A stretch of DNA of 64,000 nt from contig CAISDA010000017.1 of NCBI GenBank assembly GCA_903884005.1, positions 62,001 to 126,000 on the forward strand. Reading direction: 5' to 3'. Positions 25,510 to 33,827 of this stretch are shown here, one piece after another. Origin of the DNA: an uncultured Ignavibacteriota bacterium. Lineage in GTDB: Bacteria > Bacteroidota > Ignavibacteria > UBA10030 > UBA8401. Each line of letters starts with the position of its first letter. The first letter of the stretch is position 1. The notes under the pieces are model-generated. The model saw only the letters and a list, made by a program, of their open reading frames with translations. It was not told the DNA's origin and did not search any database. A program made the translations under genes and the position numbers.

Positions 25510-25560
25510 AGGCGATTCCCTGGTGAATGCTAAAAAAGTAATGTACGCACAAATAATGTC

Positions 25561-25590
25561 TTGACAAAACGCACAAATTTCCTATCTTTA
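25561..25590 (+). promoter_or_regulatory. Candidate promoter of the ilv leader
   Basis: TTGACA at 25561-25566 (perfect -35) and TATCTT at 25583-25588 at 16-bp spacing. The same bases also give TAtcTTTa, close to the TAnnTTTG -7 element of Bacteroidota. It lies about 45 nt upstream of the leader-peptide ATG. Confidence 0.6.
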
Positions 25591-25635
25591 CTTAAGTATA
25601 GCAACTTCACATTTTCTTTTCTTTTGCAGAGAGCC

Positions 25636-25782
25636 ATGGCACATCCGCCTCAGACAGCCGGATCAGCAGCACACAGCGATGTCCGCATCGCCGAGGGTGC
25701 CGTGTCTCTCCTTCCCATCGCCAGCATCGTCGATATTTTGGGACTGTTCCTTATTATTCTAGGCCTACCGATTTACGGCTGA
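25636..25782 (+). CDS. Putative ilv leader peptide (attenuator)
   Basis: A 48-codon ORF, start ATG preceded by GAGAG. It is unremarkable for its first half. Residues 23-46 are dominated by branched-chain residues (VSLLPIASIVDILGLFLIIL then GLPI), including a run CTT ATT ATT CTA and two uncommon CTA Leu codons. It ends just before a complex inverted repeat with a U8 tract and about 140 bp upstream of ilvB. This is the arrangement of leader peptides through which ribosome stalling at Ile/Leu/Val codons controls termination. The peptide itself would have no other function. Confidence 0.65.
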   Translation: MAHPPQTAGSAAHSDVRIAEGAVSLLPIASIVDILGLFLIILGLPIYG

Positions 25783-25786
25783 CAAT

Positions 25787-25883
25787 AATACCGGTTTCAC
25801 CCACCATACATCATCTCTCTTATCAGTTGTTCTGATACTTGTCTGCGGGCGAAACCACCGGAGAAAAGAATGGTATTTTTTTT
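25787..25883 (+). promoter_or_regulatory. Candidate attenuator terminator before ilvB
   Basis: Left arm AATACCGGTTTCACCC (25787-25802) can pair with GGGCGAAACCACCGG (25847-25861, with a small bulge), and AATACC alternatively with GGTATT (25872-25877) immediately before the T8 tract 25876-25883. A nested hairpin TATCAG-TTGTT-CTGATA is at 25821-25837. The mutually exclusive pairings suit an antiterminator/terminator switch. Confidence 0.55.
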
Positions 25884-25925
25884 GAACAGTGGCACCTGTG
25901 TTGCCGAAAGGTTTGTGAGGGAGTA

Positions 25926-27701
25926 ATGACACCATCCAAAGAATCGTCGCCGTCCGCCGCTCATCGCACAATGACCGGGTTTGAAATATTCGTCCGCTCT
26001 CTCATCGAAGAGGGCGTCGAAGTCGTCTTCGGATATCCCGGAGGAGCGGTCATCGGCATTTACGACGCGCTCCACGACATCTCGGACATCAAGCACATCC
26101 TCACCCGCCACGAACAGGGGGCCGTCCACGCCGCCGAAGGATACGCCAAGGCGAGCGGGAAGACCGGCGTCGCCCTCGTGACCTCGGGTCCCGGCGCCAC
26201 GAATACAATAACGGGCATAGCCGACGCGTACATGGACTCGGTGCCCATCGTCGTCTTCACGGGACAGGTGCCGCTGAACCTCATCGGCAACGACGCGTTC
26301 CAGGAGGCGGATATCGTCGGCATCACGCGGCCCATCACGAAGCACAATTACCTCGTCCGCAACCTGGGCGAACTCACATCGACGATCAAGGAAGCCTTCT
26401 ACGTCGCCAGCACCGGCAGGCCCGGCCCCGTGCTGGTCGACCTTCCCAAGGATGTGCTCGGCGGGAAAACGGCATTCGAATATCCGAAAACAATTTCGAT
26501 GCGGTCGTACAATCCCCACGTGGAAGGGCATCTGAAGCAATTGGAGAAAGCCGCGGCGCTGATCGCCAGGGCGAAGAAGCCCGTCTTCTATGTCGGCGGC
26601 GGCACCATCCTCGCCAACGCGTCGGACGAGCTCCGCAAGATCGTGAAGAAGACGAACATCCCCGTTGCAACGACGCTGCACGGCCTCGGCGCGTTCCCCG
26701 AGAACGACCCGCTGTCCATGGGGATGCTCGGCATGCACGGCACCTGGTTCGCGAACACCGCGGTCCAGCACTGCGACGTGCTCATCGCCGTGGGAGCGCG
26801 TTTCGACGACCGCGTCACCGGCAAGCCCGAAGCGTTCGCGCCGAATGCAAAAAAGATCCACATCGATATCGATCCTTCGGCCATCAGCAAAAATGTGAAG
26901 TGCGACGTCCCGATCGTGGGCGACGTGAAAAACGTCCTGCACAAATTGCTGCCCATGGTGGCACCGTGCGACACGAAGGACTGGCTGAAGGACATCCGGC
27001 AGTGGAAGGCGGAACATCCGCTGCGTTATAAGAACGGGGAGCACATCCGCATGCAGCACGTCATCCAGCAGCTCGGCGCGATCACCAATGGGAATGCGAT
27101 CATCGTCAGCGATGTGGGCCAGCATCAAATGTGGACGGCGCAATTCTACACGTTCATGCATCCCCGCACGCAGATCACCTCCGGCGGCCTAGGCACCATG
27201 GGCTTCTCGCTGCCCGCCTCGGTCGGGGCCGCGTTCGCCCGCACCGACGTGCCCATCGTGTCCATCAGCGGCGACGGCGGCATCCAGATGAACATTCAGG
27301 AAATGGCGACGATCGTCCAGTATAAGCTCCCCGTGAAAATTTTTATTTTGAACAACGGGTATCTCGGCATGGTCCGCCAATGGCAGGAGCTGTTTTGGAA
27401 AAAACGGTATTCCAGTGTGGAGATGACGGGACCGAATTACGTGAAGCTTGCAGAAGCGTACGGCATGCCCGGGTATTCGGCCTCGCGCACCGAAGAGGTG
27501 GAGGGGGCCATCCGGAGGGCGCTCGACACTCCCGGCCCAGTGCTCGTGGAATTCAAGGTGGTGAAGGAAGACAATGTCTATCCGATGTGGCCGGCGGGGC
27601 AGACATACAATGAAATGATGGACGTTCCCGAGGACGAACTGTCCGGCGTGGCGGGAGAAGACCCGATATCTGAAGAGCTCGTCACATTCTCGAAAGGATA
27701 A
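25926..27701 (+). CDS. ilvB: Acetolactate synthase, large (catalytic) subunit
   Basis: 591-aa ThDP-dependent enzyme that condenses two pyruvates to acetolactate (Val/Leu) or pyruvate plus 2-ketobutyrate to acetohydroxybutyrate (Ile). The ATG at 25926 follows GAGGGAG; the upstream extension to 25839 would read through the attenuator. The PYR-domain catalytic Glu is in HEQGAVHAAEGYA, and the ThDP/Mg motif is GDGGIQMN ... 'ILNNGYLGMV'. A regulatory-subunit gene follows 7 nt later, so this is the biosynthetic AHAS rather than the catabolic ALS. Confidence 0.97.
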   Translation: MTPSKESSPSAAHRTMTGFEIFVRSLIEEGVEVVFGYPGGAVIGIYDALHDISDIKHILTRHEQGAVHAAEGYAKASGKTGVALVTSGPGATNTITGIADAYMDSVPIVVFTGQVPLNLIGNDAFQEADIVGITRPITKHNYLVRNLGELTSTIKEAFYVASTGRPGPVLVDLPKDVLGGKTAFEYPKTISMRSYNPHVEGHLKQLEKAAALIARAKKPVFYVGGGTILANASDELRKIVKKTNIPVATTLHGLGAFPENDPLSMGMLGMHGTWFANTAVQHCDVLIAVGARFDDRVTGKPEAFAPNAKKIHIDIDPSAISKNVKCDVPIVGDVKNVLHKLLPMVAPCDTKDWLKDIRQWKAEHPLRYKNGEHIRMQHVIQQLGAITNGNAIIVSDVGQHQMWTAQFYTFMHPRTQITSGGLGTMGFSLPASVGAAFARTDVPIVSISGDGGIQMNIQEMATIVQYKLPVKIFILNNGYLGMVRQWQELFWKKRYSSVEMTGPNYVKLAEAYGMPGYSASRTEEVEGAIRRALDTPGPVLVEFKVVKEDNVYPMWPAGQTYNEMMDVPEDELSGVAGEDPISEELVTFSKG

Positions 27702-27708
27702 TTGCAGC

Positions 27709-28242
27709 ATGTCGATACTCACAACTACGTCCGTTGCCGACGCCGTCTCGCGAACCCATACGATCTCGATCCTTGTCGAAAACCGTTTCGGCGCCTTCGT
27801 GCGCGTGGCGGGACTCTTCTCTGCGAAAGGGTACAACATCGACAGCATCAGCGTCGGGCCCACCGAAGACGACTCGGTAAGCCGCATGACGATCGTGACG
27901 CACGGCGACGACGGCATCATCGAACAGATCACCAAGCAGCTCAACAAGCTCATCGATACGCTGAAGGTGACGGACCTGACGTACGAGCCGTTGGTGGAAC
28001 GCGACCTGGCGCTGATCAAAGTTCAAACCACGCCCGAAACGCGTTCCGAGATCATGCAGATCGTCGAGATATTCCGGGCGAAGATCATCGACATCAGTCC
28101 CAAGACGCTGACGGTGGAAGCGGTCGGCAGCAGCGAGAAGGTTGATGCGATCATCAAGATGCTGAAGCCGTTCGTGATCAAAGAGATCGCACGCACGGGG
28201 CGCGTGGCATTGAAGAGGGAGTATTACGGCGAAGTAGAATGA
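27709..28242 (+). CDS. ilvH: Acetolactate synthase, small (regulatory) subunit
   Basis: 177 aa, close to the usual small-subunit length. The N-terminal ACT domain starts HTISILVENRFGAFVRVAGLFSAKG, including the Val-binding loop region, and the C-terminal ALS_ss_C domain ends VALKREYYGE. It stimulates IlvB and confers valine feedback inhibition in characterised enzymes. Confidence 0.96.
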   Translation: MSILTTTSVADAVSRTHTISILVENRFGAFVRVAGLFSAKGYNIDSISVGPTEDDSVSRMTIVTHGDDGIIEQITKQLNKLIDTLKVTDLTYEPLVERDLALIKVQTTPETRSEIMQIVEIFRAKIIDISPKTLTVEAVGSSEKVDAIIKMLKPFVIKEIARTGRVALKREYYGEVE

Positions 28243-28391: not shown

Positions 28392-29447
28392 ATGGCACTT
28401 ATCAATTTCGGCGGCACCACGGAAGAGGTCATCACGCGCGAAGAATTTCCCCTTTCCAGGGCGCAGGACGTTTTAAAGAATGAAGTCGTCGCCATCATCG
28501 GCTACGGCCCCCAGGGGTACGGCCAGTCGCTCAACATGCGCGACAACGGCATCAACGTGATCGTCGGCCAGCGCAAAGGCGGACAGGGGTGGAACGACGC
28601 CGTGCGCGACGGATGGGTGGAAGGCACAACGCTGTTCCCGAGCATCGAAGAAGCGATCGACCGCGCCACGATCGTGCAGTATCTGCTCTCCGATGCGGGC
28701 CAGAAGGAACAATGGCCGCTGGTGAAGAAGCATCTGAAAAAAGGACAGGCGTTGTATTTTTCGCACGGCTTTTCCGTCGTGTTCAAGGACCAGACGAACG
28801 TGATCCCCCCGGACGATGTGGACGTGATCCTCGTGGCCCCGAAGGGGAGCGGCCGGACCGTGCGTTCAAATTATCTGGCCGGCAGCGGCATCAATTCCAG
28901 CTTTGCGGTGTTCCAGGATGTGACGGGACGCGCGCGCGAACGCGCCGTGGCCTGCGGCATCGCTGTCGGTTCGGGATATCTCTTCCCGACGACCTTCGAA
29001 AAAGAAGTGATGAGCGATCTCACCGGCGAACGCGGCGTGTTGATGGGAGCGATCGCAGGATTGATGAAGGCGCAATACGACGTGCTCCGCTCGATGGGGC
29101 ATTCGCCGAGCGAAGCCTTCAATGAAACGGTGGAGGAGGCCACGCAGAGCCTGTATCCGCTGGTGGGCAATCACGGCATGGACTGGATGTTCGGCGCGTG
29201 CAGCGTCACGGCGCAGCGCGGCGCGCTCGATTGGGCAAAAAAATTCGAGGCTGCCAACAAGCCGCTGTTCGAACTGCTGTACCGCGACGTGCAGTACGGC
29301 GTTGAAACCAAGCGCGTGCTCGATTCGTGCAGCGCCCCGGATTACCGGCAGACGCTCCAGGTCGAATTGGATGAATGGAAAAATTCGGAGATGTGGCAGG
29401 CCGGCGCGGCCGTCCGTTCGCTGCGTCCTGAAAACTGGAAAAAATAA
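28392..29447 (+). CDS. ilvC: Ketol-acid reductoisomerase, Bacteroidota type
   Basis: 351-aa NADPH- and Mg-dependent enzyme for the second step of branched-chain synthesis. The Rossmann motif is VAIIGYGPQGYGQSLN and the IlvC catalytic region LVAPKGSG, followed by SDLTGERGVLMGAI and GHSPSEAFNETVEE. The sequence matches the form found in Bacteroidota rather than the short class I or the long enterobacterial class II. A good RBS (GAGGAG) precedes the ATG. A 149-bp gap separates it from ilvH, so an additional promoter is possible. Confidence 0.96.
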   Translation: MALINFGGTTEEVITREEFPLSRAQDVLKNEVVAIIGYGPQGYGQSLNMRDNGINVIVGQRKGGQGWNDAVRDGWVEGTTLFPSIEEAIDRATIVQYLLSDAGQKEQWPLVKKHLKKGQALYFSHGFSVVFKDQTNVIPPDDVDVILVAPKGSGRTVRSNYLAGSGINSSFAVFQDVTGRARERAVACGIAVGSGYLFPTTFEKEVMSDLTGERGVLMGAIAGLMKAQYDVLRSMGHSPSEAFNETVEEATQSLYPLVGNHGMDWMFGACSVTAQRGALDWAKKFEAANKPLFELLYRDVQYGVETKRVLDSCSAPDYRQTLQVELDEWKNSEMWQAGAAVRSLRPENWKK

Positions 29448-29562: not shown

Positions 29563-31155
29563 ATGGAAAAAATATTCACATACGATACGACGCTCAGGGA
29601 CGGGACGCAGGGCGAAGATGTGTCGTTCTCGGCCGAAGACAAGGTCAAGATCGCCAAGCGCCTGGACGCCTTCGGCATCGATTACATCGAGGGCGGATGG
29701 CCCGGCTCCAACCCGAAGGACATGGAATTTTTCGAGCGCATGCAGCACGTGCCCATGACGCATGCTAAGATCGTCGCGTTCGGCTCAACGCGCAGAGCCA
29801 GGAATTCCGTGCAGGATGATCCGAACGTGCAGGCGCTCATCGCCGCCCGCACGCCGGCCGTCACCATCTTCGGCAAGACGTGGATATTTCATGTGAAGAC
29901 GGCGCTCGGGATATCGGAGGAGGAGAATCTCGAGATCATCGGCGATACGGTCCGCTATCTGAAGGAGAACGGAAAAGAGGTCATCTACGACGCCGAACAT
30001 TTTTTTGACGGGTATAAGGCCGACCCGGCGTATGCCGTGAAGACGCTCGAAGCCGCGCGCTCGGCCGGCGCAGATGTGATCGTGCTGTGCGACACCAACG
30101 GCGGCACGCTGCCCCAGGATGTCGGCGAGATCGTGAAGAGCGTGAAACAACTGGTGCCGGGGACCCTCGGCATTCATACGCATAACGATTCGGACCTTGC
30201 CGTTGCCAATGCGATCGCAGGGGTGCTCAACGGATGCACGCATGTGCAGGGCACGATGAACGGGTACGGCGAGCGGTGCGGAAATGCCAACATGTGCTCG
30301 CTCATCCCCGTGCTGCAGTTAAAAATGAACCGGCGCTGTGTCGACGACGACACGCTTCATGCGCTGACGCCGCTGTCCCATTATGTAAGCGAACTGGCAA
30401 ACGTGAAGCACCGGAAAAATCTTCCGTTCGTCGGGCAGAGCGCCTTTGCCCATAAAGGCGGCATCCACGTGAGCGCCGTCATGAAATCGCCTCTCACCTA
30501 CGAGCACATCGATCCTGCGGGTGTCGGCAATGTGCGGCGCGTGCTGGTCTCCGACCTTGCGGGCAAGAGCAATATTCTCTATAAGGCGCAGGAGTTCGGC
30601 ATCGACGTCGACGACGCATCGCTGCAGTCTGTCGTCGACGACCTCAAGGCGCTTGAACACGAAGGGTATCAGTATGAAGATGCCGAGGGATCGTTCGAAC
30701 TGCTGGTGAAAAAAGCGACGGGAAGGGTCAGGGAGTTTTTTGTGCTCGAGCGGTTCAAAGTGAGCATACACAAGGATTCAATGGACGGCCCGGCGCGCTC
30801 CGAAGCGATGATCAAAATACGCGTCGGCGGCGTTTCGGAAATTACCGCGGCCGAGGGGATCGGCCCCGTCAACGCACTGGACAGGGCGCTGCGGAAAGCG
30901 CTGGAACGTTTTTATCCGCAGGTGACACACATGCGTCTGACCGATTATAAGGTCCGCGTGCTCGACACGAAGAAGGGGACCGCCGCCAAAGTGCGCGTCC
31001 TCATCGAGACAGAGGGAGAGACGACGTCGTGGAATACCGTCGGCGTCTCGGACGATGTGGTGGATGCAAGTTGGAAGGCACTGGTCGACAGTGTCAGTTA
31101 TCATCTGCTGAAGGCGGATGAATCAGGAACGCAACAAACGGAACCGAAAGGATAG
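29563..31155 (+). CDS. cimA: (R)-citramalate synthase
   Basis: 530-aa member of the LeuA-like family making citramalate from pyruvate and acetyl-CoA, the entry to threonine-independent isoleucine synthesis. Family signature TYDTTLRDGTQGEDVSFS at the N-terminus, the metal-ligand HTHNDSDLAVAN, and a C-terminal allosteric LeuA-type dimer domain (about 400-525). The 'GEDVSFS' and 'EGGWPGSNPKD' segments are those of CimA (TIGR00977-type) and differ from the true LeuA at 32271, so both enzymes are present. Confidence 0.93.
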   Translation: MEKIFTYDTTLRDGTQGEDVSFSAEDKVKIAKRLDAFGIDYIEGGWPGSNPKDMEFFERMQHVPMTHAKIVAFGSTRRARNSVQDDPNVQALIAARTPAVTIFGKTWIFHVKTALGISEEENLEIIGDTVRYLKENGKEVIYDAEHFFDGYKADPAYAVKTLEAARSAGADVIVLCDTNGGTLPQDVGEIVKSVKQLVPGTLGIHTHNDSDLAVANAIAGVLNGCTHVQGTMNGYGERCGNANMCSLIPVLQLKMNRRCVDDDTLHALTPLSHYVSELANVKHRKNLPFVGQSAFAHKGGIHVSAVMKSPLTYEHIDPAGVGNVRRVLVSDLAGKSNILYKAQEFGIDVDDASLQSVVDDLKALEHEGYQYEDAEGSFELLVKKATGRVREFFVLERFKVSIHKDSMDGPARSEAMIKIRVGGVSEITAAEGIGPVNALDRALRKALERFYPQVTHMRLTDYKVRVLDTKKGTAAKVRVLIETEGETTSWNTVGVSDDVVDASWKALVDSVSYHLLKADESGTQQTEPKG

Positions 31156-31161
31156 CACGCC

Positions 31162-32178
31162 ATGATCGTCGTTCTCAAAGTGGGCGCCACTGAAGCGCAG
31201 CAAAAACACGTGATCGCCAAAGTCAAAGAGCTCGGTTTCAAACCGCATCCCATCGTTGGGGCAGAGCGCACGGTCATCGCCTGCATCGGCGACGATCGGG
31301 ACAAGGCGCAGTTGCAGACGCTCGGATCGCTGTCGTATGTGGACAGCGTCATGCCGATCCTGAAGCCGTACAAACTCGCCAGCAAGGAAACCACGAAAGA
31401 ACGCACCGTGGTGAAGGTGGGAAACGTCGCCATCGGCGGATCGCAGTTCGTGGTCATGGCCGGACCCTGCTCTGTCGAGTCGCGCGCGCAGATCATCAAG
31501 AGCGCTGAAATCGTGAAGGCAGCCGGTGCGCAGATCCTTCGAGGCGGCGCATTCAAGCCTCGTTCGTCCCCGTACAGTTTCCAGGGATTGGAAGAAGAGG
31601 GGCTTAGGCTGCTGGCCGCAGCGCGTGAGCGGACAGGATTGCCTTTTGTGACAGAGGTGGTCACGCCGTCCGATGTGGCCATGGTCGCCGACTATGCGGA
31701 CATGCTGCAGATCGGCGCGCGCAACATGCAGAACTTCGCGCTCTTAAAGGAAGTCGGGCGCGTGCGCAAACCGATCCTGCTCAAGCGGGGGATGTCCAGC
31801 ACGCTGAAGGAATTGCTCATGTCCGCCGAGTATGTGATGAGCCAGGGCAATTACGACGTCGTGCTCTGCGAGCGCGGAATTCGCACGTTCGAAGAGTACA
31901 CGCGCAACACGTGCGACATCTCGGCCATTCCCGCGTTGAAGGAATTGAGCCACCTGCCGGTGATCCTGGATCCGAGCCACGCCACGGGACTGCGCAGCCT
32001 CGTCATTCCGGTGGCGAAGGCGGGTGTCGCAGTCGGCGCTCACGGTCTCATCGTCGAGATGCACCCCAAACCCGAAGAGGCGGTCTCCGACGGCGCCCAG
32101 TCCCTGACCCCGCCGCAGTTCGACAAGATGATGAGCGAGATCAAAAAATATCTGGTGATCGAAGGAAAGCATCTCTAA
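31162..32178 (+). CDS. aroF: 3-Deoxy-7-phosphoheptulonate (DAHP) synthase, type I-beta
   Basis: 338-aa first enzyme of the shikimate pathway. An N-terminal ferredoxin-like regulatory domain (about residues 1-70) precedes the TIM barrel, as in the Thermotoga enzyme, where it mediates feedback by Tyr/Phe. Active-site motifs: [42 protein letters not shown] and LDPSHATG. It starts 6 nt after cimA, so an aromatic-pathway gene is embedded in the branched-chain operon. Confidence 0.95.
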
Positions 32179-32270: not shown

Positions 32271-33827
32271 ATGAACGAACGTGTGTACATTTTTGATACG
32301 ACGCTGCGTGACGGCGAACAATCGCCCGGCTGCAGCATGAACTTCGAAGAAAAGCTGCGGATGGCCCGACAGCTGGAACGTCTGCAGGTGGATGTGATCG
32401 AAGCGGGATTCCCGATCGCCAGCGAAGGCGATTTCGAATCGGTGAAGGAAATTGCAAAAGTGATACGCGGGTGCTCCATTGCGGCACTGAGCCGCGCGAC
32501 AAAGGGCGACATCGCGCGCGCATGGGAAGCGCTGCAGTTTGCCGCGCGCCCCCGCATACACACGTTCATTGCGACATCGGACATCCATCTGAAGTACAAG
32601 CTCAAGAAGAGCCGCGAACAGGTGCTCGACGATACGGTGCAGGCGGTGCGCTTTGCAAAGACGCTCTGCGATGACATCGAATTTTCGTGCGAAGACGCAT
32701 CGCGGTCGGACATCGGTTATATCTGTCAGATCGTTGAAGCGGCCATCGCCGAAGGCGCGACCGTCATCAACATCCCTGACACCGTCGGCTACGCGATACC
32801 GGAGGAATACGGCGCGATCATCCGCGCGATCCGCGAGCGCGTGCCCAATATAGAGAAGGCGGTGCTCAGCGTGCATTGCCACAACGATCTCGGCCTCGGG
32901 GTCGCCAATTCGCTCGCCGGGGTGATGAACGGCGCGCGGCAGATCGAATGCACGCTCAACGGCATCGGCGAACGCGCCGGCAACGCCGCGCTCGAGGAGG
33001 TCGTCATGGCGCTTCGCACGCGTCATGAAAAGGTCGGCCTTCATACGAACGTGAACGCCGAAGAAATTTTCAAATCGAGCCGTCTGCTCACCTCGCTCAC
33101 CGGCATGCACATACAGCGCAACAAGGCGATCGTCGGAGACAACGCATTCGCGCACGAAGCCGGCATCCATCAGGACGGCATGCTGAAAAATGCGATCACG
33201 TACGAGATCATGACGCCCGAAAGCGTGGGCATCAAGCACAGCACCCTGGTGCTCGGCAAGCATTCCGGGCGCCACGCGCTGAAGCAGCGGTTTCAGGAAC
33301 TCGGATATCAGTTGTCCGCCGAGGAACTCGAAGCGGCATACGCGGCGTTCACAACGATCGCCGACGAAAAAAAGCAGGTGTTCGACGACGATCTGATCGC
33401 CATTCTCCAGAACGAAGTGTCGGAGACGCCCGAAACGTACACGCTCGAAACGCTGCAGGTCACCAGCGGCTTGAATCTCATTGCCACCGCGACGGTCGCA
33501 TTAAAGAAGGGCGAGGAGGTCTCGCAGGACTCGGCCACCGGCGACGGTCCCGTTGACGCCGCCTATCATGCGATTGAACGCATCACCGGCATTCGCGGAG
33601 AGCTGCTCGACTATTCTATCAAATCGGTATCGTGGGGCCACGACGCCATCGGTGAAGTGCACGTGAAGATCACGATCGACGGGTACGTGTTCAACGGCCG
33701 TTCGGCAAGCACCGACGTCATCACCGGAAGCGTGAAGGCGTATCTCAATGCGATCAATCACGCATCGACCGCCCGATACAGAAAAGACAAACCGTCCGAC
33801 GTGAAGCGCGAGGGCGCGGCGGTGTGA
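32271..33827 (+). CDS. leuA: 2-Isopropylmalate synthase
   Basis: 518 aa. The ATG at 32271 is the start that gives the canonical N-terminus [20 protein letters not shown]; a same-frame extension to 31911 lies inside aroF. Motifs [17 protein letters not shown] and [18 protein letters not shown] are diagnostic. The C-terminal Leu-binding dimerisation domain (about 390-510) is intact. Condenses ketoisovalerate with acetyl-CoA. Confidence 0.96.

Follow-up and report, generated by a model that had tools for sequence, protein, structure and literature searches.

Most descriptions of leader-peptide attenuation come from Proteobacteria, Actinobacteria and Firmicutes, and the ilv, leu and trp operons of enteric bacteria carry leader-peptide transcription attenuators. 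Upstream open reading frames (uORFs) of the branched-chain amino acid (BCAA) type are also known from the Corynebacterium ilvB-II, ilvB-OMG and Leptospira ilvB motifs (PMC10272879). In mycobacteria, cysteine uORFs (Canestrari 2020) are described as translational attenuators by PMC13236596 and PMC9031893, and PMC9723704 reports leader-peptide candidates in Flavobacterium psychrophilum. The open-access literature searched, with subscription papers outside its reach, contains no described element of the lineage studied here. No leader scored at or above the gathering threshold of Rfam 15 models, which cover ilvB-associated motifs, T-box, riboswitches and other known leaders, and identity with a known Rfam leader or riboswitch was rejected for lack of a match.

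We analysed the region before ilvB in a 64-kb stretch of DNA, referred to as the window. From sequence comparison and structure modeling we propose a ribosome-mediated attenuator that would sense charged Ile, Leu and Val tRNAs and act chiefly by controlling where translation of the first gene is initiated, a reading to which we assign a probability of about 0.68. The region starts with a promoter on the forward strand, TTGACA at 25561-25566 and TATCTT at 25583-25588 around a 16-nt spacer, which matches the consensus at 10 of 12 positions. The leader ORF at 25636-25782 (+) runs for 48 codons from ATG at 25636 to TGA at 25780-25782 and encodes MAHPPQTAGSAAHSDVRIAEGAVSLLPIASIVDILGLFLIILGLPIYG. 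Its final 24 codons, 25708-25779 (+), form the putative control-codon block, with 14 codons for Ile, Leu or Val, two CTA and four ATT among them. This count ranks first among 1343 stop-terminated 24-codon tails in the six frames of the window, the runner-up having 11, and was reached in 1 of 2000 dinucleotide shuffles of 25510-25925. CTA accounts for 2/7 of leucine codons in the leader versus 1/189 in the six downstream genes, and ATT for 4/7 of isoleucine codons versus 20/169. The promoter, the 48-codon ORF with its BCAA-rich second half and the rare CTA codons had all been pointed out in an earlier note on this DNA, and each is borne out.

The first gene predicted to be regulated is ilvB (acetolactate synthase large subunit, 25926-27701, TIGR00118), with the Shine-Dalgarno sequence GAGGGAG at 25917-25923. 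On the same forward strand follow ilvN (acetolactate synthase small subunit, 27709-28242, TIGR00119), ilvC (ketol-acid reductoisomerase, 28392-29447, TIGR00465), cimA (citramalate synthase, 29563-31155, TIGR00977), a DAHP synthase (31162-32178, NF006421, TIGR01361) and leuA (2-isopropylmalate synthase, 32271-33827, TIGR00973). The DAHP synthase, which belongs to the aromatic pathway, lies inside the BCAA block, flanked by citramalate synthase and leuA. A second acetolactate-synthase-like protein of this genome (G000:C33:232966-234651) shows 37% identity to the IlvB of the window. No leader was found upstream of the genome's own ilvD (G000:C57) or of its gltB, which lies on another contig (G000:C33).

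The family of the window genome is represented by 22 genomes, 16 of which have an operon-leading ilvB with readable upstream sequence. All 16 loci have an ORF of 48-52 codons ending like LLPLSGIIILLGITFAILRLTIIG, the promoter elements CTTGAC[AT] and TATCTT, and a stem right after the leader stop. Over all pairs of eight relatives (L007-L012, L016, L027), the final 24 codons differ by 133 synonymous and 55 nonsynonymous codon changes and the part of the ORF before them by 107 and 324; the BCAA block, with its synonymous excess, is under selection as protein code. Counted from the stop, positions -2, -3, -5, -7, -8, -14 and -15 are occupied by I, L or V in 81-95% of 57 leaders.

In families of the order other than that of the window, the operon begins with ilvD and the leader is placed before ilvD. 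A covariance model built from ten ilvD-led leaders, R1, detects a covarying homologue in 37 of 98 genomes of the order, in most cases upstream of ilvD and occasionally upstream of gltB, and has no match outside the order in a 391-genome sample of the class. Among 41 R1 loci examined, 37 precede ilvD and 4 precede gltB. The ilvD genes so detected fall into two subfamilies, with 74-83% and about 44% identity to the query, and a promoter TTGAC..TAnnnT precedes 40 of the 41 leaders. An ORF scan found a fifth leader before gltB, L203, for which leader ORF and promoter are the features checked. The gltB-led leaders (L154:526-798, L157 at G093:C362, L162:558-818, L164:542-807 and L203) represent five genomes of the order. 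Going by coordinates, many members of the order have gltB a short way downstream of ilvB/ilvN (e.g. G031:C15, G009:C209), and separate gltB genes therefore seem to have retained or copied the BCAA leader control. Run over whole genomes, R1 misses the ilvB-led leaders of the window's family, and it matches some known ilvB-led loci weakly (E 0.016 to 0.81), the window's copy not among them; the case for homology of ilvB-led and ilvD-led forms is therefore built on ORF pattern, promoter and stem position together with these weak matches. SAM riboswitches (RF00162) occur near ilv loci in two relatives (L133:2098-2220, +; L160:110-229, -).

The inverted repeat reported earlier past the ORF is present. 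Strand A (GGTTTC-A-CCC, 25793-25802, +) can pair with strand B (GGG-C-GAAACC, 25847-25856, +), making a candidate anti-sequestor (or antiterminator) stem whose strand A would be reachable by a ribosome paused on the stop codon of the leader. The homologous strand A begins 3-8 nt, mostly 5-7, past the stop in relatives. From the general geometry of ribosomes, the beginning of A would be covered when a ribosome stands on the stop codon and would stay uncovered when it stalls at the conserved Ile/Leu at -3 or further upstream. The stem reads CAGAGGTTAC/GTAACCTCTG in the family and GCCAGAGG..AACC/GGTT..CCTCTGGC in the order, with a pair exchange between the window (GGTTTC/GAAACC) and its family (GGTTAC/GTAACC). 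On 40 ilvD/gltB-led leaders, 97.1% of alignment cells are paired versus 90.7 +/- 0.6 after shuffling, the covariation score is 0.188 versus 0.080 +/- 0.009, and slid versions of the stem reach at most 48% paired. One pair is seen as A-U, G-C, C-G and U-A, and RNAalifold recovers the identical stem unaided. For the ilvB-led alignment taken alone, covariation does not exceed that of shuffles, because the stem hardly varies there and MAFFT places the window row two columns off.

In ilvD/gltB-led leaders, strand B (GGTTCACCTC) is complementary to the Shine-Dalgarno region of the first gene, and the pairs GTTCACCT/AGGTGAAC in L133 and GTTCGCCT/AGGCGAAC in L139 represent a compensatory difference. 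On average, B pairs with its own Shine-Dalgarno region at -9.27 kcal/mol and with regions swapped between species at -8.10 (P=0.00015, 31 dereplicated ilvD/gltB-led leaders), the mean with shuffled partners being -5.36 kcal/mol. In the ilvB-led leaders L007-L016 and L027, a strand located between A and B pairs with a region reaching the Shine-Dalgarno sequence, and B:C forms at the tip of the predicted fold. There the sequestor strands score -16.2 with their own partners and -12.6 when swapped, the best of 5040 permutations over seven dereplicated leaders; kinship among the sequences, which come mostly from assembled metagenomes, inflates permutation statistics. Coevolution is thus seen between B and the Shine-Dalgarno region in ilvD/gltB-led leaders and between sequestor strands in ilvB-led ones. 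With A covered in silico up to an assumed boundary of stop+16/17, and with leader start codons partly guessed, the mean unpaired probability of the Shine-Dalgarno sequence drops from 0.50 to 0.32 in the 40 ilvD/gltB-led leaders (null 0.41 +/- 0.03) and from 0.38 to 0.27 in a set of 16 (null 0.35 +/- 0.04); in L002, L003, L007 and L008 it closes little or not at all. A Shine-Dalgarno sequence of -4 kcal/mol or below precedes 77% of leader-controlled genes versus 28% after shuffling, with -6.1 in the window. Counting against a translational output, genes in the window show little Shine-Dalgarno signal by a crude test, ribosomes of Bacteroidia do not recognise Shine-Dalgarno sequences, and most mRNAs of Chlorobia are without one (PMC9976891).

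Conservation in the family and in the order, a point on which the earlier note had let its proposal stand or fall, strongly supports BCAA leader-peptide attenuation. ORF, promoter and post-stop stem are kept in the family, the ORF is under purifying selection and A:B covaries in the order; that the leader is an attenuator of BCAA genes is, on these comparisons, very probable. A chance hydrophobic ORF beside a chance inverted repeat, for which nothing speaks except the short length, has a negligible probability and was ruled out by conservation, covariation and the statistics of the Ile/Leu/Val tail. The ORF might instead encode a functional small membrane protein, the RNA stem being unrelated to its translation, since the 24 C-terminal residues match a transmembrane helix in hydrophobicity and show conservation across the family. 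However, the residues are specifically Ile, Leu and Val and replace each other, rare codons are preferred, the stem keeps its fixed distance of 3-8 nt from the stop, and the leader unit precedes BCAA genes or gltB, all of which make this explanation highly improbable.

Explanations of the output deserve more weight. In classical transcription attenuation as in enteric ilv and leu operons, B would pair downstream under BCAA excess, so that a hairpin and the T8 tract terminate transcription before ilvB, while starvation would favour A:B as antiterminator. The window does present a leader ORF, A:B and T8 in this layout, and terminator-like hairpins with T tracts occur in 6 of the 56 homologous leaders other than the window's, against 0.65 expected, as in G045 (L126), where CCUCU..AGAGG is followed by U8. 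Yet two scans found no intrinsic terminator in the window, 50 of the 56 leaders are without one, Shine-Dalgarno pairing coevolves, and strand B has no U tract after it. The T8 tract itself is there, at 25876-25883, about 42 nt upstream of the ilvB ATG at 25926, but it is specific to the window genome within the family and aligns with the 3' arm of a closed hairpin, AGAGAAA..TTTCTCT, in L004/L006 (a hairpin arm in relatives L004-L006), which favours a role as hairpin arm over one as terminator tract. In the window it probably serves likewise as an arm of a predicted A/T-rich hairpin between B and ilvB (25859-25884, +), in which 25859-25867 pairs with 25876-25884. We consider classical attenuation unlikely. 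What remains of the enteric layout proposed in the earlier note is a BCAA leader peptide with conserved ORF, promoter and stem; its competing stems remain as A:B and an alternative Shine-Dalgarno pairing that coevolves in the order, and an intrinsic terminator is not supported. A combined control, in which Shine-Dalgarno masking uncouples translation and Rho is proposed to terminate within the leader or ilvB, fits all comparative data and requires no intrinsic terminator; it overlaps the translational model and is compatible with it, and we rate it as possible, though on the unlikely side. The coevolution of B with the Shine-Dalgarno region, the accessibility shift and the Shine-Dalgarno enrichment lead us to prefer translational attenuation, and for the order as a whole a translational output appears likely.

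Under translational attenuation, the leader ORF would be translated, and with BCAA-tRNAs plentiful the ribosome would arrive at the stop and cover A a few nucleotides beyond, leaving B free to join the structure that keeps the Shine-Dalgarno sequence of the first gene closed. When a BCAA-tRNA is scarce, the ribosome would stall within the Ile/Leu/Val block and expose A; A:B would then form, the Shine-Dalgarno sequence would open and the block would be expressed. The window's divergent copy may end in the same way as the leaders of the order. It retains promoter, ORF and A:B and is otherwise divergent from the family. Its post-stop stem has a z score of -2.3 against shuffles, the mean of its order being -4.5. 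Its Shine-Dalgarno region pairs with upstream sequence no better than in shuffles (P=0.69), and predicted accessibility of the Shine-Dalgarno sequence changes little, from 0.36 to 0.23, when A is covered. For this copy we would give a translational output about an even chance.

A similar BCAA-rich ORF with a post-stop stem stands before ilvD at loci of Melioribacter, Ignavibacteria, Caldithrix/Calditrichaceae, Chlorobium/Chlorobiaceae and Balneolales. The stem sequence often differs, as in GGTCAATCCC/GGGATTGACC and, in L111 of Balneolales, GCCAGAGGTCAT/ATGACCTCTGG; the mean z score against shuffles over 23 loci of the phylum sample is -4.2, to be compared with the order mean given above. Such ilvD leaders of Ignavibacteria, Calditrichota, Chlorobia and Balneolales are L035-L044, L067, L078, L111 and L208-L235. 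At many Ignavibacteria loci, a second hairpin would pair TCTGAA with the Shine-Dalgarno region TTCAGAGG. From these sequences one may tentatively, at a little under even odds, picture an ancient family of BCAA leader attenuators with members in Ignavibacteria, Chlorobia, Rhodothermia/Balneolales and Calditrichota, as a rule placed upstream of ilvD. Its geometry (the BCAA-rich end of the ORF, the stop codon, the strand after it, a loop of 40-70 nt, the partner strand and the gene start) would have been kept while the stems were rewritten, its output would be translational through a Shine-Dalgarno sequence that these lineages retain here and elsewhere largely dispense with, and gltB would have been tied in. 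If so, glutamate synthase, and with it amino-donor supply, would be linked to BCAA-tRNA charging in five genomes of one order. The leader before gltB suggests that some bacteria set glutamate supply by reading BCAA-tRNA charge; E. coli couples BCAA and glutamate supply with the protein Lrp. The covarying BCAA leader, which has no Rfam family, is traced here through an order of Bacteroidota, and more loosely related leaders occur in Chlorobia, Ignavibacteria and Calditrichota. Should the output be translational, the leader would do for BCAA what the mycobacterial attenuators do for cysteine, in a phylum that seldom uses Shine-Dalgarno sequences, and would therefore predict which genes keep a Shine-Dalgarno sequence and why.

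Compared with the enteric ilv, leu and trp systems, the present leaders share an ORF rich in codons of the pathway and mutually exclusive pairings, and strand A past the stop resembles region 2 of trpL. They differ in having no intrinsic terminator in the window and in 50 of the 56 homologues, in an alternative pairing that masks the Shine-Dalgarno sequence, and in a length of 41-52 codons with a conserved C-terminal pattern. With ilvB-II, ilvB-OMG and the Leptospira ilvB motifs they share a BCAA-rich uORF upstream of ilvB, whereas they have no Rfam 15 match and the intrinsic terminator is a feature of ilvB-II (PMC10272879). The actinobacterial LEU element before leuA likewise combines a leucine-rich uORF with pairing of the Shine-Dalgarno box, but there the run of Leu codons itself pairs with the Shine-Dalgarno sequence and a pseudoknot is predicted, while in the present leader the post-stop strand B pairs (PMC1262725). 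The candidates of Flavobacterium psychrophilum are also from Bacteroidota and upstream of amino-acid biosynthesis operons; they differ in coming from class Bacteroidia, in being ascribed to control of transcription elongation and, in the available portion of that paper, in being named with no ilv gene (PMC9723704). The erm and cat leaders and the mycobacterial cysteine uORFs resemble the present system in the proposal that a ribosome stalled within a short ORF frees the Shine-Dalgarno sequence of the next gene. Unlike these, the present leader is predicted to sense BCAA, stands before ilvB, ilvD or gltB, has its ORF away from the extreme 5' end of the RNA, and possesses a separate post-stop A:B stem as putative anti-sequestor.
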